Positions 1-36,660 of a stretch of 52,593 bases of DNA are shown one piece after another. Origin of the DNA: Olleya namhaensis. GTDB lineage: Bacteria > Bacteroidota > Bacteroidia > Flavobacteriales > Flavobacteriaceae. The notes below the pieces were generated by a model that had not been told where the DNA came from, did not search any database, and saw only the letters and a program-made list of their open reading frames with translations. Made by a program: the position numbers and the translations under genes. Position 1 is the first letter of the stretch. Each line of letters begins with the position of its first letter. The stretch covers positions 1-52,593 of the forward strand of contig NZ_FORM01000012.1 in the NCBI RefSeq assembly GCF_900114005.1, read 5' to 3'.

Positions 1-383
1 AAACTATTTTTTTTACCTTCTAAACGTCTAAAAAAAATCTTTTGAACTAGAAAATATTAACAAAAAAAGGTCAACCTATATCAGTATAATACAAATTCCA
101 CTCTAACTGAAAAAATAGGACTTTAAAATAACCGAATTCCTGCCGACTCAAACTCCGAAAAACTTACTGTAAACTGAATTTCACTCTTGCGGAATTCTGA
201 TCAAACGGAATTTATATAGTTTACGGAATTTAAGCAGCCTTGTGTGAAATTCAGACTATTGAACCTCACTCAAATCCGAATTGAAAGCGGATGAATCTAT
301 TGCCGAATTCCAACTGTTGTGTTGAATTTCACTCAAACGGAATGACATTGATTATGTGAAATAATTAGCGAAATTCCACGCCT
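1..383. other. Gene-free left edge with repeated short words
   Basis: No open frame of useful length is visible on either strand here. The stretch is AT-rich and carries recurring short words: TGAATTTCACTC followed by CGGAAT at about 173-195 and again at about 322-345, and CCGAATTCC at about 131 and 304, with a related CCGAATTTCAC at about 437 inside the next site. It ends at the left arm of the first cassette-boundary site, so it may be the decayed tail of a further cassette upstream. That reading is inference. Confidence 0.4.
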
Positions 384-523
384 GGCAACAACGTGCATAA
401 TTAATATGCTTGTTTTATGCGTATCGTGAAATTCTGCCGAATTTCACTAATGGGTAGTTTTTATTTATTAATTTAGTTGACTTAACAACGCATACTAAGT
501 CATGCACAAGCACGTTGCCCACA
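384..523 (+). repeat. Cassette-boundary palindromic site A
   Basis: Imperfect palindrome of about 135 bp. The left arm reads GGCAAC-AAC-GTGCAT (384-398). The right arm reads ATGCAC-AAGC-ACGTTGCCC (502-520). GTGCAT and ATGCAC are complementary, and the outer GGCAAC pairs with GTTGCC. The bases between the two stem boxes differ in length on the two sides, like extrahelical bases in integron attC sites. The centre is less like the other sites, but a TTATTTATTAATTTAGTTGACTTAACAACGCAT segment-like stretch at 460-493 matches their right half. The presumed exchange point is between G514 and T515. Confidence 0.6.
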
Positions 524-531
524 ATAAAAAA

Positions 532-1149
532 ATGAAGAACTTCAAAGAGAATTTAAGGAAAAAACCAACTCTATTTTTGGTAGTTGGAATTTTTGTTTTG
601 TTTATCGGAATTCCGTTTGGGATTTATGGATTGACTTTGAATGGTGGAGCAAGTTTAGGTGGAGTTTTAGTTTTACTTGGAGTTTTTATTTGTATTCCAT
701 TTTTAGTAATTGACAGAATTTTAGTGAATAAAATAAAACCATTCAAACTTTCGATTTTTGAATTTGTATTTATTGGAATTATTTTGCTATTCTATTTGTC
801 CGACAACAAAAAACTGTATGTTGATTTGACTGAATATAAAACTGAATATTTCGTTATTATTTATAATAATGGGAATTTAGAAAACTCTGAATTGAATTGG
901 AGTTTTCCCTTTAGTAAAAGTGTGGAATTAAATGAAAATTCTATAATTATTCCATCAGAATTTAAAGGAAATTATCAAGTTGAACTTAAAACACCGAAAA
1001 ATTGGAAAGGTTGGAGAATGAATCCTGACAGAATTAACGAAATTAATTTGAAAATATATACAAATAATAAAACTGAACTGAATCAAAAAGAAATTGACTC
1101 ATTAGCGAAAGTAGAAATAATTACTGTGGGCAACACCGTGTATAATTAA
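532..1149 (+). CDS. Small three-helix membrane protein, cassette 1
   Basis: Unrecognised protein of 205 residues. I chose ATG 532 because the ATG at 502 lies inside the boundary site. Three hydrophobic segments are visible at about residues 13-34, 43-65 and 75-90, followed by a polar C-terminal part of about 115 residues rich in Asn, Glu and Lys that probably forms a soluble domain. The last residues (GNTVYN) and the stop codon are read from the left arm of the next boundary site, so this frame is closed by the repeat. It is the only gene between sites A and B. No catalytic motif is seen. A role is not assignable; small membrane proteins of this type are common cargo in mobile cassettes. Confidence 0.75.
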   Translation: MKNFKENLRKKPTLFLVVGIFVLFIGIPFGIYGLTLNGGASLGGVLVLLGVFICIPFLVIDRILVNKIKPFKLSIFEFVFIGIILLFYLSDNKKLYVDLTEYKTEYFVIIYNNGNLENSELNWSFPFSKSVELNENSIIIPSEFKGNYQVELKTPKNWKGWRMNPDRINEINLKIYTNNKTELNQKEIDSLAKVEIITVGNTVYN

Positions 1150-1264
1150 TTGCTTCCTTCTAGCCTACTTACGAACATTCCTGCGGAATATTCTATCTGT
1201 GATTTATTTGCTAACTTAGTTCCATAAATCACGCAACTAACCATACACAATCACGTTGTGCCCA
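1125..1264 (+). repeat. Cassette-boundary palindromic site B
   Basis: The left arm is TGTGGGCAAC-ACC-GTGTATAATTAATTGC (1125 onward, split here by box). The right arm is ATACAC-AATC-ACGTTG (1243-1258). GTGTAT pairs with ATACAC, whereas site A has GTGCAT with ATGCAC, so the stem box covaries. The middle carries TCTAGCCTACTTAC and GATTTATTTGCTAACTTAGT, shared with site C and in part with D. The left ten bases pair with the start of cassette 1 (514-523), not with the right end of this site. Confidence 0.75.
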
Positions 1265-1288
1265 ATATGAAAATCCGTCAATCAAAGA

Positions 1289-3037
1289 ATGTTTAAGAGT
1301 TTAAAAGATTATTACGATTACATAAAAAACGATAATGGTTTTGACCAAAAATTCGGAATTTCAAGTAATTTAACGTCTTTACGAGATAGCATTGAAGATA
1401 GTGTTGAAAAGAAAAAATGCACATTCGAAATTTACTTTTCAGATTTTAATTTTAAACGAGGAAATTATGTTCCTCTATTTTCAAATAATGAAAGTAGTTA
1501 TCCTTCAAAATCTTTATTTGAAGATTTTGAATATATTAAAGATCGAGCAGGTTTAAATGATTCTATAAGTCCAAAATATTTAGCGAAGTACAACCATTTG
1601 CTTTGGGATAGTTCTCACAAACACATTGATTACGCGAAAAAAGCAATAGATAATTATTTCAATTTTATTAAATCTGTTCTTTTACCTAAAGACGACAATT
1701 TATCAAACAGAGGATTTTCTGAAATGTTTGAAAATTTGTTTGTGTTAGCACAAACAATAAATTACAAAAGAGAGGATTCAATAAAATTCTTAATAGTTAA
1801 GCTAGACGCAGAAGACATCAATGGTTTTCAAAAATATTCATTAATGGATTTTATCACTAAAAATGGTAAAAAATTAGAAAAAGCCCACACCAACAAATTC
1901 TTTGCTTATTCAAAAGAAGTAATAGACAAGGAATTATATCCAGATTTAAACAAAGAGTATCTTCAATTATTAATTGATATATCAATAAAACTAGGGAAAT
2001 CACAAAGAGATTTTCATAACAAATTAGGCGATTGTCATATTGCTGATTCTTCAAAACATAAAGAAAGTTTTGTAGTGCACGATTTTTATCTAAAAGCACT
2101 TAAGGAATATCAAAAAGCTGGAAATAAAAAAAAGATTGAAGAAGTAACCGTTTTAATTGAGAAAGCAAAAGATAATCTAAATTTTAAATCAATAAAGACT
2201 GAACATTCTAGCCCTGAATTACAAAAGTGGTACGATGCGCTTAATGAAATGACAACAAACCTAGTTGAAAAAGGAGAAAGCAAAGATATCTACGAGTATT
2301 TGATGTGTTCTGACCAAATTTTTCCGAAAGCTAAAGTACTAGACGAGAAAATTAATTCCGTAATGATGGATTTAGTTAGTACAATGAGTTTTGATATTAA
2401 TAGAAATGTGAGTGGCAATAAAGGTGGAATTAATTCATACTACATTCATATTCAAAATTTCACATTACGCCATCTTTGGTTAGTGTTTTCTAAAGGATTG
2501 AAAAATGGAAAAATCAGTTTTGATTCATTAAAAGATTTTTTAAAAAACAATACCTGGTATGGAGTTGAATTTTCGATAAAAAATCCTGCAGGTAAAACAG
2601 AAACTTATAATTGGTTACAACTTTTAACACCTGCACTAGATAGTTATTTCAAGCAATCAGAGATTGACATTAAAACAAATACAAACAGTTCATCTGGTTA
2701 TATTTTATCTATTGATTCTTTAGTTTTAAAATTTGAAGGTATTTTAAGAGAGTTTTCTAGATATAATGGAGCACAGACAATTGACATTAAGGAAAACGGA
2801 ACACAAGAAAGAATTTCCTTTGAAAAATTATTAGAAAACGAAAAATTTAAAGAATTGGTGCCAGAAGATGATATCGCTTTATTTAGATTTTTGTTCACTT
2901 CAGAAGGAATGAATTTAAGGAACAATATTGCTCATTGCTTTTTTAAGTCAAAAGATTATTCTGCTGCAATTATGTGGCTACTGATTTGTGCATTTTTTAA
3001 ACTAGGAAACTATAAATTGAAAACTATAACGAAATAA
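1289..3037 (+). CDS. DUF4209-like protein with C-terminal HEPN-type motif, cassette 2
   Basis: Protein of 582 residues without signal peptide or membrane segments, so probably cytoplasmic. Overall length and the C-terminal segment resemble DUF4209 proteins; I judge this from memory of the family and did not run a search. The C-terminus contains LRNNIAH with R544 and H549, an R-x4-H arrangement as used in HEPN ribonucleases, which are common in antiviral and toxin systems. The start ATG 1289 is preceded by a nine-codon frame from ATG 1267 whose stop overlaps this start, so translation may be coupled. The gene stops six bases before the next site and is the only long frame between sites B and C. 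Possible defence function is inference. Confidence 0.7.
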   Translation: MFKSLKDYYDYIKNDNGFDQKFGISSNLTSLRDSIEDSVEKKKCTFEIYFSDFNFKRGNYVPLFSNNESSYPSKSLFEDFEYIKDRAGLNDSISPKYLAKYNHLLWDSSHKHIDYAKKAIDNYFNFIKSVLLPKDDNLSNRGFSEMFENLFVLAQTINYKREDSIKFLIVKLDAEDINGFQKYSLMDFITKNGKKLEKAHTNKFFAYSKEVIDKELYPDLNKEYLQLLIDISIKLGKSQRDFHNKLGDCHIADSSKHKESFVVHDFYLKALKEYQKAGNKKKIEEVTVLIEKAKDNLNFKSIKTEHSSPELQKWYDALNEMTTNLVEKGESKDIYEYLMCSDQIFPKAKVLDEKINSVMMDLVSTMSFDINRNVSGNKGGINSYYIHIQNFTLRHLWLVFSKGLKNGKISFDSLKDFLKNNTWYGVEFSIKNPAGKTETYNWLQLLTPALDSYFKQSEIDIKTNTNSSSGYILSIDSLVLKFEGILREFSRYNGAQTIDIKENGTQERISFEKLLENEKFKELVPEDDIALFRFLFTSEGMNLRNNIAHCFFKSKDYSAAIMWLLICAFFKLGNYKLKTITK

Positions 3038-3043
3038 AAATAC

Positions 3044-3181
3044 TGGGCACAACACCGTATAAAATTAATTGCTAGTTCTGGCTCACTTGGGAAATTCCTT
3101 CGGACTTTCTATCTGTGATTTATTTGCTACCTTTAATGCTTAAAACACGCAACGAAATCATACATAAAACCGTTGTAAAAC
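3044..3181 (+). repeat. Cassette-boundary palindromic site C
   Basis: The left end TGGGCACAAC (3044-3053) is the exact reverse complement of the start of cassette 2, GTTGTGCCCA (1255-1264). It is followed by ACC-GTATAAAATTAATTGC and the shared words CTAGTTCTGGCTCACTT and CTATCTGTGATTTATTTGC. The right arm ends in ATACATAAAACCGTTG, with the presumed exchange point at G3172/T3173. Confidence 0.75.
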
Positions 3182-3183
3182 AT

Positions 3184-3666
3184 TTGAAAAAGACAATCAG
3201 CATACTAACATTCTTCTTAATTCTTTCTTGCTCTTCCGAAAAAGACAAGATTGAAAAAAGTACTGATATGACTTATTTAGGTAGAATTATAGAAAACTAT
3301 ATGTTTGAGTGTACTGACGCAAATCAATTAGAAGTTCACACTAAAGCGAAATACAATCCAACCGATTCTACTTTAACTTTCTTTATTGGTAAATCTAAAA
3401 CAGAATTCTTTCAGAAGTGGGAAATTCCATTACAAGATATTTATGTGGATATAAATTTTATTCATTCACTGACAGATACAATGAAACAAATAAACATTAA
3501 AGCAACTGAAAAAGATTCTGTTATTCAATATTCTGACAAAAGAAATATAACTTTTGAAATGACAAATTCTTATAATATTTATTTATTTGATTGGTGTGAT
3601 AAGGAAAAACAAGAAAACTTTATAAGTGCGTTAGAGAGAATAACTGAATTGAGTAAACTTAAATAA
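3184..3666 (+). CDS. Predicted lipoprotein, cassette 3 first gene
   Basis: Unrecognised lipoprotein of about 161 residues if it starts at TTG 3184. That start gives a clean lipoprotein signal (charged KK, hydrophobic core, lipobox LILSC followed by SS). An ATG at 3115 is in frame but lies inside the boundary site and would add 23 residues coded by the repeat. The TTG start also aligns with the position of ATG in cassette 4, where a similar sequence follows the site. The mature part has no motif I know. The next gene begins two bases after the stop, so the two are probably co-translated and may act together at the cell envelope, but no partner can be named. Confidence 0.65.
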   Translation: MKKTISILTFFLILSCSSEKDKIEKSTDMTYLGRIIENYMFECTDANQLEVHTKAKYNPTDSTLTFFIGKSKTEFFQKWEIPLQDIYVDINFIHSLTDTMKQINIKATEKDSVIQYSDKRNITFEMTNSYNIYLFDWCDKEKQENFISALERITELSKLK

Positions 3667-3668
3667 AA

Positions 3669-4193
3669 ATGCAAGAAACCATCAAAAATGGGATTCCTAT
3701 TCACGTTGATTTAGTATCAAATCGTGACGAAGTTTATTCAGGAATTTGCCTAAAATCTAACGACAATATCTTCATATTTATCTGTTTTAATGACGAGACA
3801 AAAGAATTTGATGGTTTTGCAATTATTAGAAAATTCGAAATTGAAAAATATCGAGAATGGGACGAAGAAGAATTAAGTGAAATAAAGAATAACAATTACG
3901 CTGAATTTATCGGAAAACTACCACTCGAAAAAATGAACAATATGTTCGAATGTTTATCGGAATTGGAAAACGAAGAGTTGATTGCAGTATTTACAGAAGC
4001 TGATGATGATTCATATTTTGTCGGACAAATTAAAAATCTAACAGAAAATGAAGCGGAATTAAAATTAATAAATGAAGATGCGGAATGGATTGAAAATAAG
4101 AAAATAAATATTGCCGAAATAACTTATATTGGATTTCGGACAAGTATTGAAAAAGAGTTACTGAATAAAAACGTTTTACAACAACGTGTATAA
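3669..4193 (+). CDS. Acidic 174-residue protein, possibly two Sm-like barrels, cassette 3 second gene
   Basis: Cytoplasmic protein without signal or membrane segment. Two halves (about residues 5-60 and 95-155) share a pattern of alternating strands: a Val/Ile-rich start, a turn, then a G-x-I/V stretch (SGICLKS and VGQIKNL) and a later aromatic-rich strand, which suggests two small SH3/Sm-like barrels. This is a visual impression, not a search result. The linker is rich in Glu. The last residues (NVLQQRV) and the stop come from the left arm of site D. Two genes in one cassette is unusual for integron-type arrays; paired toxin-immunity or lipoprotein-partner functions are possible but unsupported. 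Confidence 0.65.
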   Translation: MQETIKNGIPIHVDLVSNRDEVYSGICLKSNDNIFIFICFNDETKEFDGFAIIRKFEIEKYREWDEEELSEIKNNNYAEFIGKLPLEKMNNMFECLSELENEELIAVFTEADDDSYFVGQIKNLTENEAELKLINEDAEWIENKKINIAEITYIGFRTSIEKELLNKNVLQQRV

Positions 4194-4309
4194 TTCATTG
4201 CTAGTTCTAGCCTACTTACTAAAACACTCACGTATTTTCTATTGAGTTTATATTTGCTAAACTTAGTGCTTAAACCACGCAACAAATCATATAAAAACCG
4301 TTGCCTACA
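4173..4309 (+). repeat. Cassette-boundary palindromic site D
   Basis: The left end GTTTTACAAC (4173-4182) is the exact reverse complement of GTTGTAAAAC at the start of cassette 3 (3172-3181). Then come AAC-GTGTATAATTCATTGC and CTAGTTCTAGCCTACTTAC, almost identical to site B. The right half has TATTTGCTAAACTTAGTGC and the end ATATAAAAACCGTTG, with the presumed exchange point at G4300/T4301. Confidence 0.75.
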
Positions 4310-4313
4310 ATTT

Positions 4314-5399
4314 ATGAAAACCGTCAATTACATTATAATTCTGTTTTTTTTAACAAGCTGTTCGGTAGACAAAACTGAAATAGTTCCAGCAAAATATAAT
4401 GGTAAATACGGAGCAATAAATTCTAAAGGAAAGTGGCTTATTGAACCAACTTTCGATTCTATAAATAGTTTTTACAATGGTTTTGCAGACACATATAAAA
4501 ACGGAAAACAAGGATTAATAGATATCGAAGGAAAATTAGTGATTGATTATGACTATGATTTCATTGGGCATGTTGAAAACGAGAGAGTTTTAGTTCAAAC
4601 AGAAAACCACTACAATTTTGCGGATTTAAAAGGTAAATTAATATCTAAAACTTCCTTCTCAGATGCAGAAGAATTTTCTGAAGAGTTGGCTTCTGTTCAG
4701 TTTATCAAAAACGGAAAATGGGGATATATAGATGTTAATGGAAATTTAGAAATAGACACATTATTTTCTCTTGCTTACGAATTTAAAAATGGCCTTGCGG
4801 AAGTCGAAATAGAAACTACTGACACGACAACTGTTAATCCAAAATATATCATGTTAGAGCCAAAATTCTATGATTGTAGAATAGATAAGTCTGGAAAAAT
4901 AATTGACACAATTGAATATAAAAAGAACGAAAGAAAATTTCCATTAATTGGTTCTGCATACACAAACACTTTAGGAAAACTAAATAGATTTGGAGATACC
5001 ATAATGCAAAAGAAATACAGAGCTTTTGGTTATCCACAAGGAAAATATATGTGGTATTTAACTAACGAGAAATATGGATTAGCAGATACAACTGGAACTA
5101 TTCTAATAAAACCAATTTATGAGAACCTTTCTTATTTTAGTCATAATGGATTGGCAATAGCAAAACAAAATGGAAAATATGGCTATATTAATAATAAAGG
5201 GGACATAATTATTGATTTCAAATTTGACGATGCACGAAGTTTTAAATATGATTTAGCACCTGTAAAAATCAATGGTAAATGGGGGTTTATCGACCAATAT
5301 GGTACTTTTAAAATCGAACCAAAATTTGAAAATATAATTGGTCATTTCCGAAAATTAAATGGAAAAACCGAACGAATTTATGAATACAACGAGGAATAA
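4314..5399 (+). CDS. WG-repeat lipoprotein, cassette 4
   Basis: Lipoprotein of 361 residues with signal MKTVNYIIILFFLTSCS and lipidated Cys at about 16. The mature part is built from about seven WG-type repeats, each with a pattern such as GKYGAINSKGKWLIEP, GKWGYIDVNGNLEI, EKYGLADTTGTILIKP, GKYGYINNKGDIIID and GKWGFIDQYGTFKIEP. WG repeats form beta-propeller-like or solenoid folds and are frequent in secreted Bacteroidota proteins with unknown ligands. ATG 4314 was chosen over ATG 4242 because the latter lies in the boundary site and would spoil the signal peptide. It is the only gene between sites D and E. The function is likely binding at the cell surface, by inference. Confidence 0.85.
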   Translation: MKTVNYIIILFFLTSCSVDKTEIVPAKYNGKYGAINSKGKWLIEPTFDSINSFYNGFADTYKNGKQGLIDIEGKLVIDYDYDFIGHVENERVLVQTENHYNFADLKGKLISKTSFSDAEEFSEELASVQFIKNGKWGYIDVNGNLEIDTLFSLAYEFKNGLAEVEIETTDTTTVNPKYIMLEPKFYDCRIDKSGKIIDTIEYKKNERKFPLIGSAYTNTLGKLNRFGDTIMQKKYRAFGYPQGKYMWYLTNEKYGLADTTGTILIKPIYENLSYFSHNGLAIAKQNGKYGYINNKGDIIIDFKFDDARSFKYDLAPVKINGKWGFIDQYGTFKIEPKFENIIGHFRKLNGKTERIYEYNEE

Positions 5400-5403
5400 A
5401 AAC

Positions 5404-5538
5404 TGCACATAACTCCATGTTTAATTGATTTCTAGTTCTAGACTATTCGAGCATTCTTGCGGATTTCTATTTGGTTTTTATTCCCTAAATTAGACGTTTA
5501 AACACTTAATTAATCGAATACAATCACATTATACACCA
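5404..5538 (+). repeat. Cassette-boundary site E, partly decayed
   Basis: Same layout as B-D but degraded. The left end TGCACATAAC (5404-5413) is followed by TCC-ATGTTTAATTGATTTC, the shared word CTAGTTCTAG, then TTCTTGCGGATTTCTATTTG. The right end is ATACAATCACATTATACACC. The expected GTTG at the exchange point has become ATTA. The left end matches the start of cassette 4 (GTTGCCTACA) at only about six of ten positions, so pairing is largely lost. Confidence 0.55.
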
Positions 5539-5540
5539 AT

Positions 5541-6239
5541 ATGATAGATTTATCTCAAGCTGAGAAACAAATTAGATATGTCACAAATTTTAAAGATCTT
5601 ATATCTATACCTTTTCAAGCGGAAATCAACGCAAGTTGTTGGACTCGTAATCTAGTGGGTGATTTTTCTGAAATTATTAAGCAAGTAGAACAAAACGAAA
5701 CTATAGTAGAACTTAATAAAAAAGAGCTACTAGATCTAAAATTAAGTAAACAGGGACAACTTGCTCGTAATATTATTTTAAATGATTTAGAGACGCTAAA
5801 AGCACAAGGTGCCTCTCCAATACTTAATGTGATCAAGAGTTATCAAAGAGACGATGCCTATCCCCTTTTTCCAACGGATGTGTACTCTTTTCATGTAGAC
5901 CGTTCTCCTATACCAACTAATACTTTTTTATGCACTTATCACGGAGAACCTAGTGAGATATTACCCAATGCACAAGCTAATCAGAAAATATTGGTACCAG
6001 AAATACGTCAGGAATTAAAAAAACTATATGATGGCGCTGATGATGGTTTTGAATCGTTTTTAAGCGAGTATTTCTTTGATTTACACTATCAGCCCAAACC
6101 TAATGCTAATATTATAAACCTAGGCGTTGGTCATTTATGGAAGCTAGCAGTTGATCACCCAAGAAGCCAAGTCCTACCTTGTATACATCGCGCACCTAAG
6201 GAAAAAGAGGGCAACAGGCGGTTATTGTTAATCTGCTAA
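5541..6239 (+). CDS. DUF1826 family protein, cassette 5
   Basis: Protein of 232 residues resembling DUF1826, a bacterial family of unknown function and similar length. The landmarks used are a conserved run around FPTDVYSFHVDRSPIPTNTF and the C-terminal PCIHRAP. Conserved His and Cys residues (H and D in YSFHVDRS, C in FLCTYHG, C and H in PCIHRAP) could bind a metal, which is inference. No signal peptide. The start ATG 5541 sits directly after site E, at the same distance from the site as in the intact cassettes. The C-terminal tail after HRAPKEKEGNRR is short and irregular and may reflect erosion at the cassette end. Confidence 0.75.
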   Translation: MIDLSQAEKQIRYVTNFKDLISIPFQAEINASCWTRNLVGDFSEIIKQVEQNETIVELNKKELLDLKLSKQGQLARNIILNDLETLKAQGASPILNVIKSYQRDDAYPLFPTDVYSFHVDRSPIPTNTFLCTYHGEPSEILPNAQANQKILVPEIRQELKKLYDGADDGFESFLSEYFFDLHYQPKPNANIINLGVGHLWKLAVDHPRSQVLPCIHRAPKEKEGNRRLLLIC

Positions 6240-6299
6240 TCGAAAATTACAATAAGAGTAATACGGTTTTAAGAAATCTGTAATTCAATAAAAAGAAAC

Positions 6300-6430
6300 T
6301 GTATCTATCCTTGCGAAATTAAATATTACTAGTTTACGCCTACTGATAAAAATCTAAGTAGATTTTCCATTTGGTTTTTATTTGCTAAGTTAGGTATCTA
6401 AACAGACTACTAATTTCAAAATTGCCTTTT
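6300..6430 (+). repeat. Cassette-boundary site F, strongly decayed
   Basis: Recognisable only by alignment to sites B-E: CCTTGCGAAATTAAATATT, then ACTAGTTTACGCCTACTGAT in place of CTAGTTCTAGCCTACTTAC, then CCATTTGGTTTTTATTTGC and TAAGTTAGGTATCTAAAC. The outer boxes and the CCGTTG end are not clear (AAAATTGCC at 6418-6426 may be the remnant). It separates the DUF1826 and DUF2071 genes and probably marks the old right end of the array. Confidence 0.45.
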
Positions 6431-6446
6431 AAATTTAATCACTCAG

Positions 6447-7160
6447 ATGAAAATACCAAAAATAAAAGGAATTATAGACCGACGAATTTTAATCAATTAT
6501 CAAATTGACAAAGCGGTCTTAGAAAATTATCTACCAAAACCTTTTAAACCTAAATTAGTAAATGGAAAAGGTATTGCAGGAATCTGTTTGATAAGATTAA
6601 AGGACATCAGACCAAAAGGTTTGCCTAAACAAATCGGAATTTCATCTGAAAATGGCGCACATCGTATTGCTGTTGTATGGACTGAAAATGATAAGAAAAA
6701 AGAAGGTGTTTATATACCAAGAAGAGATACGTCTTCCAAGTTAAATGCATTAGCTGGAGGAACTATATTTCCTGGCATTCATCATTTAGCAAATTTCACA
6801 ATAAATGAAAAAGACGGACAGTACAAAGTCGCTTTTATAAGTCATGACGGTACTGCACTATCCATAACAGCAAAAGAAACAAACACTTGGAATACCGAAA
6901 GTGTATTTGAAAATTTAGACTGTGCTTCTAAATTCTTTGAAAATGGTGCAGTGGGCTATTCTCCCGACAAAAATAATTTTGATGGCCTTGAATTAAAAGT
7001 CTATAATTGGAAAGTATCACTTTTAGAAGTTGAGCACGTAAGATCCAGTTTTTTTGAAAATGAGAGTATTTTCCCAAAAGGCTCTGTCAAATTTGATAAT
7101 GCTTTATTAATGAAGGATATTGAACACGAATGGATTGGGTTGTCAAAAATCAAAAACTGA
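6447..7160 (+). CDS. DUF2071 family protein
   Basis: Protein of 237 residues resembling DUF2071 (YqjF-like), a family distantly related to acetoacetate decarboxylase. Landmarks are the N-terminal region with DRRILINYQIDKAVLENYLP, the middle GAHRIAVVW and the PRRDTSSKLNALAGGTIFPG stretch that lines the pocket in this fold. No signal peptide. Substrate unknown. It follows the decayed site F, and no further site occurs after its stop, so it may be either a cassette that lost its right boundary or the first resident chromosomal gene. It converges on the malY gene with 40 bases between stops. Confidence 0.75.
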   Translation: MKIPKIKGIIDRRILINYQIDKAVLENYLPKPFKPKLVNGKGIAGICLIRLKDIRPKGLPKQIGISSENGAHRIAVVWTENDKKKEGVYIPRRDTSSKLNALAGGTIFPGIHHLANFTINEKDGQYKVAFISHDGTALSITAKETNTWNTESVFENLDCASKFFENGAVGYSPDKNNFDGLELKVYNWKVSLLEVEHVRSSFFENESIFPKGSVKFDNALLMKDIEHEWIGLSKIKN

Positions 7161-7200
7161 TTCAATCTAAAAACAAAGTAGAAATACCACATAAAAACAA

Positions 7201-8406
7201 TTACTTTTCTAATATCGCCTTTATTACTCGGCGTAAGCCCTCCTCCAATATTACTCTAGGACACGCTAGGTTTAATCTAATATAACCATCAGCATTAGCA
7301 ACAAACATATTACCTCCTTCCAATAAAACACCAGCATTTTTAGCAAAGAATAAAGTAAGGTTTTCATTATCATTAAAATAATAACTAACATCTACCCAAG
7401 CCAAATACGTTGCATCCGGAATATTGAATGTCGCCCTAGGTAAATAGGTATCTAATTGTGTTTTTAAGTACTTAAAGTTTTCATCTAAATAATCTGTCAA
7501 CTCAACCAACCAAGCATGCCCTTCTGAATAAGCAGCCTTAGCTGCTACGATGCTTAATGGATTTTCTACAGGTAAATAATTTTCGTTGTACTTAAGGCGT
7601 AATGTTTCGTTAGGAATGATAATGTTAGCAAACATATTCCCGGCAAGGTTAAATGTTTTACTTGGTGCCATACAAGTGATAATCTTATCCGAATTAGGAA
7701 AAAGACTAGCCAATGGTGTAAAAATTTTATCTTTTCGGAGCACATCACAATGAATTTCGTCAGATATAATAGTCAAGCCATTTTCTAAACAAACGTCGCC
7801 AAACGCTACTAGCTCTTCTTTAGACCATAATCTTCCCGAAGGATTATGTGGACTACAAAATATTGCTAAAACACATTTAGGGTCTGAAGCTTTAATTTTT
7901 ATATCATCGATATCCATTCTAAATTCACCTTTTTCTTCTAGCAAATCAGAACAGACCAACGCTACCTCATTATAATCCGTTCCATGCTTAAAAAAGGCAT
8001 AAGAAGGCGTAATAATCAATACTTTTTGATCTGATTTACAAATATGACCAATCAAATCATATAAAGCCGGGACAACACCCTTGGCGTGTACTAAATGATT
8101 TGTGTCAATCGCCCAATTATAACGCTTAATACACCATTGCTTAAAACTTAAAGCATAAGAAGGATCAGCAACCATAGAGTATCCCAATAATGGATGCTCT
8201 AAACGCGCTTTCATAGCATTAATAATTTCTGGAGCAATAGCAAACTCCATATCTGCAACCCACATTTTGATAAAATCTGTCTCTTGATATTTACCACTAA
8301 GGTCTTCATCTGGATCAAAAAGATACCCTCTATAACCTTCAAGAGACATGGCATTTGTTCCTTTACGTTCTAATACTTGATTAAATTGATATTTGGTAGA
8401 TGACAT
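7201..8406 (-). CDS. MalY/PatB-family cystathionine beta-lyase
   Basis: PLP enzyme of fold type I, 401 residues from ATG 8406. A TTG three codons upstream is also in frame but weaker. The PLP lysine is K250 in APSKTFNLAG. The aspartate that holds the pyridine nitrogen is in SDEIHCD (about 215-221), and FCSPHNPSGRLW is the substrate and cofactor loop. The MalY/PatB branch cleaves carbon-sulfur bonds of cystathionine or related amino acids, giving homocysteine or thiols, pyruvate and ammonia in the cytoplasm. The gene stands alone, divergent from the LamG lipoprotein gene and convergent with the DUF2071 gene. The subfamily is assigned from motifs; the in vivo substrate is not certain. Confidence 0.88.
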   Translation of the reverse strand: MSSTKYQFNQVLERKGTNAMSLEGYRGYLFDPDEDLSGKYQETDFIKMWVADMEFAIAPEIINAMKARLEHPLLGYSMVADPSYALSFKQWCIKRYNWAIDTNHLVHAKGVVPALYDLIGHICKSDQKVLIITPSYAFFKHGTDYNEVALVCSDLLEEKGEFRMDIDDIKIKASDPKCVLAIFCSPHNPSGRLWSKEELVAFGDVCLENGLTIISDEIHCDVLRKDKIFTPLASLFPNSDKIITCMAPSKTFNLAGNMFANIIIPNETLRLKYNENYLPVENPLSIVAAKAAYSEGHAWLVELTDYLDENFKYLKTQLDTYLPRATFNIPDATYLAWVDVSYYFNDNENLTLFFAKNAGVLLEGGNMFVANADGYIRLNLACPRVILEEGLRRVIKAILEK

Positions 8407-8575
8407 TTGTTTCAAAATTTAAGCTAAGTAAAAGTACAACCTTAGAATTAAACAAGATTTTCTCTATGTAGATGAGGACTATGTGTCTAATTAAATCTCT
8501 AAAAATATAAATTAAAAAAAATCTAAAGTGGCACAATATATGTTAGAAAAAGAGACTAAACCTAACTTATCAATT

Positions 8576-36348: not shown

Positions 36349-36353
36349 ATAAG

Positions 36354-36656
36354 TAAGTAAATCTATAAGCCGGATTTTGTACTTCCTAAGAAGCCCCTAT
36401 CATTTATCTGAGCTTGCTGTTACCAACACGCTTTAGCTACCTACCCTCTAACAATCGCGCGTGTACGCTCAAACGTTAGTATACATGGTATTGCACCTCA
36501 TAGAGTTTACCTGGTTTCACTACAGCATGACCTGTACATTCTTTCTGTTGCACTTTTCCTCACCTCTCGGCGGATGGCTGTTAACCACTATGATTACACT
36601 ACGGTGTCCGGACTTTCCTCTTTAAAATAAATTTAAAGCGATAAGGCAATTTACTG
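36354..36656 (-). ncRNA. rnpB: RNase P RNA
   Basis: Catalytic RNA that processes the 5' ends of tRNA precursors, about 300 nt, read on the minus strand. The conserved 5' element GAGGAAAGTCCGGAC is the complement of about 36605-36621, and the 3' element ACAAAATCCGGCTTATAG is the complement of about 36362-36379. P1 can form: AGTAAATT at the 5' end pairs with GATTTACT at the 3' end. A -7 box sits just upstream and a terminator just downstream, so both ends are well bracketed. Bases 36669-36850 to the right show only the dnaX leader. Confidence 0.95.
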
Positions 36657-36660
36657 AATG

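Follow-up and report, generated by a model that had tools for sequence, protein, structure and literature searches.

The cassette array in the window

The stretch of DNA analysed here (the window; 52,593 nucleotides (nt) from Olleya namhaensis) is contig C28 of a 36-contig draft genome of 3.52 Mb. Over the first 6.4 kb of the window, genes on one strand are interspersed with six related palindromes. We conclude that this is the partly decayed end of the gene-cassette array of an integron-like capture system, the start of the contig falling inside the array. An initial annotation had arrived at the same integron-like reading, and its particulars are borne out: same-strand genes alternate with palindromic sites, start codons follow shortly after the exchange point G|TT, two of the sites are decayed, and the boxes GTTGCCC, GTTGTGC, GTTGTAA and GTTGCCT are real and unlike the GTTRRRY of canonical attC sites. 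From AAC to GTT a site spans about 123-130 nt, which becomes about 140 nt when both boxes are counted. At the head of a cassette, the 7 nt that follow GTT equal the reverse complement of those that precede AAC at its own tail; in the following we will refer to these as tags, a complete match being given as 7/7. Bit scores in the list are those of a covariance model described below.

Site 1, 380..523, + strand: tail box N7AAC (380-389), palindrome, head box GTTN7 (514-523); 84 bits
Cassette 1, 515..1255, + strand: single gene 532-1149; head and own-tail tag 7/7
Site 2, 1125..1264, + strand: AAC from 1132, GTT 1255-1257; found by scan and model, 117 bits
Cassette 2, 1256..3172, + strand: gene 1289-3037, DUF4209 (Pfam); tag 7/7
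Site 3, 3044..3181, + strand: AAC from 3051, GTT 3172-3174; found by scan and model, 95 bits
Cassette 3, 3173..4300, + strand: genes 3184-3666 and 3669-4193; tag 7/7
Site 4, 4173..4309, + strand: AAC from 4180, GTT 4300-4302; found by scan and model, 100 bits
Cassette 4, 4301..5528, + strand: gene 4314-5399, WG repeats (Pfam); head and tail tags mismatch
Site 5, decayed, 5404..5537, + strand: ATT at 5528-5530; 48.7 bits
Cassette 5, decayed, 5529..6422, + strand: gene 5541-6239, weak DUF1826 (Pfam)
Site 6, heavily decayed, 6307..6425, + strand: seen in the alignment; the recognisable array stops here

Sites 1-4 are intact (387-516, 1132-1257, 3051-3174 and 4180-4302 from AAC to GTT) and were found both by a two-motif scan and by the covariance model. 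Site 5 (5411-5530) is weak or decayed; it was missed by the scan and recovered by the model (E 2.4e-6). Site 6 (about 6307-6425) is a remnant recognised by eye and in the alignment, and stands in neither the scan nor the model list. Cassette 4 is either decayed or a fusion of two, since its head (GTTGCCTACAA) and the tail tag in site 5 (GTTATGTGCAG) disagree. Three of the six proteins encoded in the window cassettes have no Pfam family at E 0.001, among them that of cassette 1, which looks membrane-like by eye. Positions 94-516 have a 96.7% counterpart on contig C32, and the two copies diverge after the GTT at 514-516.

Palindromic sites across the genome

The two-motif scan, which was trained on the same 22 loci on which it was run, found 142 sites on the array strand of these loci and none on the other strand; block-shuffled sequence gave 2. 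Of the 102 eligible sites in this genome and its relatives, 70 went into the covariance model, part of them from these same loci. A search of the genome with such a model, as the initial annotation had advised, yielded at least 73 sites on 13 contigs, a lower bound, as are all counts of this search, in which 150 of 3871 candidates were scored. Sites extend through contigs C25 and C32 and the initial 9 kb of C26.

In the 70 aligned sites 94.8% of the arm cells are paired, with changes on both sides in 11 of the 16 pairs. Such two-sided changes amount to 128 cells, compared with a mean of 31.9 after shuffling and a maximum of 27 in slid versions, the latter control leaning towards structure because the structure was drawn from the same sequences; the count of further pair types was reached by two of 500 shuffles, and the covariation score, like the remaining measures, by none. 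As in integrons, the site is a conserved palindrome able to fold. Its boxes are of another kind, GTTRRRY (with RYYYAAC as its counterpart) fitting 4 of 135, and an Rfam search with the sites returned no match.

Tags and cassette boundaries

Tags were compared over 122 consecutive cassettes, 19 of which were dropped, leaving 103 with both boxes readable. The head matches the cassette's own tail at 7/7 in 67 of the 103 and at 6/7 or better in 89, while the tail of the upstream neighbour, with which the head shares its integrated site, reaches 6/7 in 13; permuted tails did so in 4.7 cases on average, and in 12 at most, over 1000 runs. There are 64 different tags among the cassettes. The position after the tag is a nearly fixed mismatch (A at the head in 101 of 103, G in the complement of the tail in 91 of 103), after which the match resumes (0.91 and 0.87), so that the arm consists of 10 bp (NNNNNNNAAC...GTTNNNNNNN), a conserved A.C mismatch and further matching positions. 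This complementarity implies that the full 10-bp arm pairs in the excised circle, and mostly does not in the integrated array. Folded singly, integrated sites are weak (z from -2.59 to +0.72), and the structure emerges instead from covariation and from the closed-circle form: when folded as DNA, the latter is stabler than the integrated form in 82 of 89 sites, and at least 8 of the 10 box positions are paired in 78 of 89 circles versus 15 of 89 integrated sites.

The unit that recurs is a gene together with the site that follows it. In seven comparisons of shared cassettes, identity ends 2-9 nt before the G of G|TT and, in six of the seven, 3 nt after this G, the seventh having a similar next cassette. 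A cassette of 704 nt occurs twice on C25 with 100% identity and different neighbours, and one of about 558 nt is present in three copies in the genome of relative G023. The initial annotation had allowed for sites that always keep the same flanking genes; in the arrays inspected, sites lie between different genes, and cassettes turn up again among new neighbours, the breaks being at G|TT. A noncoding cassette of about 356 nt was also seen (L031, about 3650-6690, and L089), in two or three copies on C26 and six in a stretch of G001.

Most cassettes combine one or two genes with a palindrome of about 125 nt. The longest open reading frame (ORF) lies on the array strand in 87 of the 122, as expected of an array of cassettes in one orientation, on the opposite strand in 15, and no ORF of 50 amino acids (aa) is present in 20.

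A tyrosine recombinase with an attI-like site

Four PF00589 proteins are encoded in the genome: a XerD over its cut-off, a XerC-like protein below its own, one at a locus that by eye resembles an integrated element, and a protein of 408 aa. The last is the tyrosine recombinase that the initial annotation had recommended looking for beside an array. It lies at the end of contig C19, directly followed by an attI-like site: its stop codon is succeeded by CATATAACTAG|TTGTACG, the contig ending 131 nt past the stop, and the array on C26 starts with the identical CATATAACTAG|TTG. Residues R246, K271, H335, R338, H361 and Y370, which we take to be the catalytic R, K, HxxR, H and Y of tyrosine recombinases, are invariant in 22 of 22 proteins, and about 110 N-terminal residues outside the Pfam domains form an extra N-terminal domain.

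When 30 recombinase loci (L046-L075) were inspected by eye, 27 showed a G|TT site shortly past the stop, with a different sequence behind each, which reads as an attI-like site beside the integrase and joined at G|TT. A strict attI-like motif aligns 29 of 59 loci, and in 15 of these 29 sites TAnnTTnG stands at -21 to -23 (0.9 expected), a candidate consensus for a promoter (Pc) reading from attI into the cassettes.

The link between the recombinase and the cassettes was assessed by exact 10-mer pairs of head and own tail starting within 300 nt of the recombinase stop, in 56 of 80 loci, of which six with the N-terminal domain and two without it were too short. Such a pair is present at 18 of 27 loci with the domain (0.95 in shuffles; one of the 18, L189, is possibly a chance match) and at none of 21 without it (0.83 in shuffles). 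Within 1.5 kb, pairs were found at 10 of 22 loci of the family or order and 6 of 21 class-wide, as compared with none of 22 XerC/XerD controls and 1 of 10 IntI loci. The same exact rule, which requires no model, gives unbroken chains of seven cassettes after the recombinase in G001 (the last link possibly by chance), seven in G018 and five in G023; at the 27 named loci with the domain there are chains of two at 5, of one at 13 and none at 9, and 20 shuffles for each of these loci never gave more than one. Where a pair is missing, the cassette may be long, the tag mutated or the flank short.

Dispersed attI-like pads

In the single-contig genomes G004 and G005 the attI-like pattern CATATAACNAGTT is present 13 and 17 times, the reversed control giving 2 and 1; it was counted 8 times in G003, 5 in G007 and 3 in the genome of the window, and is absent from 17 of 37 genomes. 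Thirty such pads (from the genome of the window, G004 and G005) share a module of about 80 nt ending in ATATAACNAG|TT. Three of them lie at the recombinase, the reading frame of which overlaps the module; upstream of the other 27 no recombinase was found in up to 900 nt, save for two 14-aa matches to the module itself. The first cassette after the pad has an exact own tail at 15 of the 30 and a site from the scan at eight more, with neither at seven, many loci ending within 4 kb. Because attI-like pads on other contigs of this genome each start an array of their own, the recombinase probably acts in trans, and one recombinase serving many landing pads is the simplest reading of these sequences. 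To our knowledge, no layout of dispersed attI-like pads served by a single recombinase has been known.

Many of the G004 and G005 pads (L109, L111-L121, L123, L125, L126) share a further stretch of about 70 nt, containing a sequence similar to TACGTAGTTCTACGTA, upstream of the module. In G005 (L056/L079) the recombinase match is split into two pieces in different frames, although this genome contains the attI-like pattern 17 times and has at least 58 sites.

Distribution among relatives and plasmids

At least one site is present in 43 of 60 relatives and in 35 of 37 genomes of the same family, and one genome has at least 107. When carriers of the recombinase are defined by a match of at least 130 bits (the Xer background reaches 109 at most), five or more sites are found in 34 of 37 carriers versus 2 of 23 non-carriers. 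Among the matches listed, many genomes of the class match the family profile along nearly its full length. Recombinases with the N-terminal domain occur in Zunongwangia, Mesonia, Algibacter, Winogradskyella, Algoriphagus, Cyclobacterium, Aquiflexum, Rufibacter and Pontibacter, and in three metagenome bins labelled as other phyla.

Two Chryseobacterium plasmids likewise encode the recombinase with an attI-like site, which suggests movement between species. Tag pairs on plasmids are weak, upstream and reverse-strand controls being similar in number and several pairs being of low complexity. Among phage records four match the recombinase, none over 80% of the protein. On one of the plasmids (NZ_CP041688.1, 6959-9390; L264) the recombinase and its attI-like site are followed by a possible cassette with matching tags; a group II intron and IS110 are annotated near this recombinase.

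Relation to IntI integrons and other recombinases

The system resembles IntI integrons in that a tyrosine recombinase lies by an attI-like site, arrays run on one strand, sites are palindromic with covarying arms, the presumed exchange point is G|TT, and arrays also occur in genomes without a recombinase, like clusters of attC sites lacking integron integrases (CALIN). It is unlike them in its recombinase, which has no IntI-specific insert and an extra N-terminal domain, in its 10-bp cassette-specific boxes with a conserved A.C mismatch in place of GTTRRRY/RYYYAAC, in the dispersed attI-like pads of this genus, and in a recombinase gene that points in the direction of the cassettes. The usual layout of intI is divergent from them.

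Could the window nevertheless belong to an ordinary IntI integron, or a CALIN remnant of one, which standard tools have missed? In favour are the common layout and the exchange at G|TT, a 28% alignment of the recombinase with an IntI, PDB matches of its structural model to XerA and IntI4, and a tree of 55 rows in which the family is strongly joined with IntI. The sister relation suggested by this small tree was lost in a denser tree of 71 rows, which groups IntI and archaeal XerA-like proteins together (99/97), apart from a family that is itself not a clean clade, although an approximately unbiased (AU) test does not reject family and IntI as one clade (p-AU 0.101). The IntI-specific insert is absent from 23 of 23 and 32 of 32 family proteins, which fill 2-7 of its 27 columns as compared with 24-27 in IntI, and according to two studies this additional domain is what defines an integron integrase (PMC9668308, PMC2426708). 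TIGR02249, the curated IntI model, gives 195.8 bits in two stretches where the cut-off is 265, and is passed in 57 of 198 genomes of a phylum-wide sample versus none of 19 of the same family, the present genome included. Together with the four fitting boxes out of 135, these results leave the IntI explanation with a slim chance. The complete integron reported for Bacteroidetes, besides those of Chlorobi and Ignavibacteriae, is that of Salinibacter ruber M1, which was found by IntI and attC models and is therefore canonical (PMC9024848).

The closest relatives of the catalytic part, both in sequence and in fold, are XerA proteins (NF040815; 4a8e, 5hxy), the recombinase scoring 202 bits against a cut-off of 220. 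The family adds to these the N-terminal domain and the cassette arrays, core-only recombinases having yielded no tag pair within 300 nt at 21 loci. The model of the N-terminal domain (predicted local distance difference test, pLDDT, 89) has the HARP domain of SMARCAL1 (4o66) as its top fold match, a weak one (E 0.1, template modelling (TM) score 0.43, root-mean-square deviation (rmsd) 7.1), and searches with the domain gave no Pfam HARP match and no sequence match in the PDB. HARP, a domain that binds forked DNA, was suggested by a sequence pattern; the modelled likeness is a lead only.

Mobile palindromic repeats of the miniature inverted-repeat transposable element (MITE) or repetitive extragenic palindromic (REP) type, inserted after genes without any exchange of cassettes, would account for at least 73 related palindromes, but it is the gene with its following site that recurs and not the palindrome alone, breaks coincide with the G|TT join, matching tags lie on either side of the gene and not of the repeat, and same-strand arrays begin at an attI-like site, so that on these comparisons we regard this explanation as very improbable. 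Equally hard to credit are modules moved by the host XerC/XerD at dif-like sites, in the manner of the pdif modules that occur on Acinetobacter plasmids: XerC- and XerD-like proteins are indeed encoded in the genome, but none of 22 XerC/XerD loci gave a pair of head and own tail, the linked enzyme belongs to a family of its own that carries an additional domain, and the sites are palindromes of about 125 nt with covarying arms.

A probable integron-like capture system

We consider it highly probable, on comparison of sequences, that the array belongs to an integron-like capture system with a dedicated recombinase, joining at G|TT, tagged cassettes and probable action in trans. The 408-aa recombinase would cut at G|TT and join a circular cassette to the attI-like site or to another cassette. 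Its substrate would likely be the folded single strand of the cassette circle, as in attC recombination, because the full 10-bp arm pairs in the excised circle. With the outer pairs lost on integration, insertion would perhaps be favoured over excision; the recombinase would probably work in trans on pads of other contigs, and a promoter element near attI may drive the first cassettes.

Several points weigh against this account. The arrays, tags, boundaries, covariation, pads and the linkage of recombinase and attI are features of the sequences themselves, and all support for recombination is comparative. The end of C19 separates the recombinase from an array in this genome (both are on one contig in G001, G004, G018 and G023), and L062, L070 and L075 have no attI-like site by eye. 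No exact tag pair is present at 9 of the 27 loci with the N-terminal domain or, within 1.5 kb, at 12 of 22 family or order loci and 15 of 21 class-wide, and a slightly wider search window gives one pair among the 21 core-only loci. Kinship confounds the co-occurrence of sites and recombinase (inside the family, 32 of 33 carriers versus 2 of 4 non-carriers have five or more sites, p 0.026), and two genomes in which no recombinase match reaches 130 bits, G008 and G028, have 31 and 36 sites. Outside the genus the pad pattern is as frequent as its control (0-3 in both), the excess lying mainly in this genus. Finally, there are the 15 cassettes of 122 with the longest ORF opposite and the 20 without one of 50 aa.

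A more far-reaching version appears possible, though short of probable: a second, phylum-wide integron of Bacteroidota, arisen from a different Xer-like branch, in which a HARP-like fork-binding domain would replace the IntI insert in handling folded single-stranded cassettes, a dozen or more dispersed pads would be served in trans in some genomes, and pairing of tags in the circle only would favour insertion.

No description of such a system was found in the open-access literature of PubMed Central (PMC), the scope of a search to which preprints and most subscription papers are external, nor is one given in passages of PMC8618304, PMC9668308, PMC9024848, PMC2426708 and PMC8352920. Surveys of integrons take the IntI insert and models of canonical attC as their criteria; since sites of a different kind are present in 35 of 37 genomes of the same family, a large pool of cassette genes in Bacteroidota would be overlooked. 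This bacterium and its relatives seem to gather genes singly into rows like integrons, though with another kind of enzyme and other landing sites, so that a second system by which genes are collected in nature may have escaped notice. It would provide a case for comparison on whether cassette recombination evolved once or twice, and on what fixes the direction of cassette flow.

Cassette content and neighbouring features

The 57 cassette proteins examined belong to diverse Pfam families, alpha/beta hydrolases and DUF6090 being represented up to three times each. In a PADLOC search of the same proteins, among the first 25 families listed, a type IIG restriction enzyme-methyltransferase, one of the 57 proteins, leads, and the first cassette of G004 is by eye a restriction-modification set; defence genes can be among the cargo.

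An aminotransferase gene (7201-8415) adjoins the array in the window and may once have been a cassette. Among the six relatives of the same genus that were searched, a match (87%) was found in G005 only, in a different context and with a weak site nearby, the comparison of flanks being uninformative.

Other elements were seen at cassette sites. One with palindromic ends (GATGGTGAACATT) is apparently inserted at such a site at L031 (about 7830-8110), and in G004 (L076, about 6475-8320) an element with a reverse transcriptase, resembling a group II intron by eye, lies within a cassette site, by the tail box. Farther along the window, a class A RNase P RNA is located at 36350-36657 on the minus strand.

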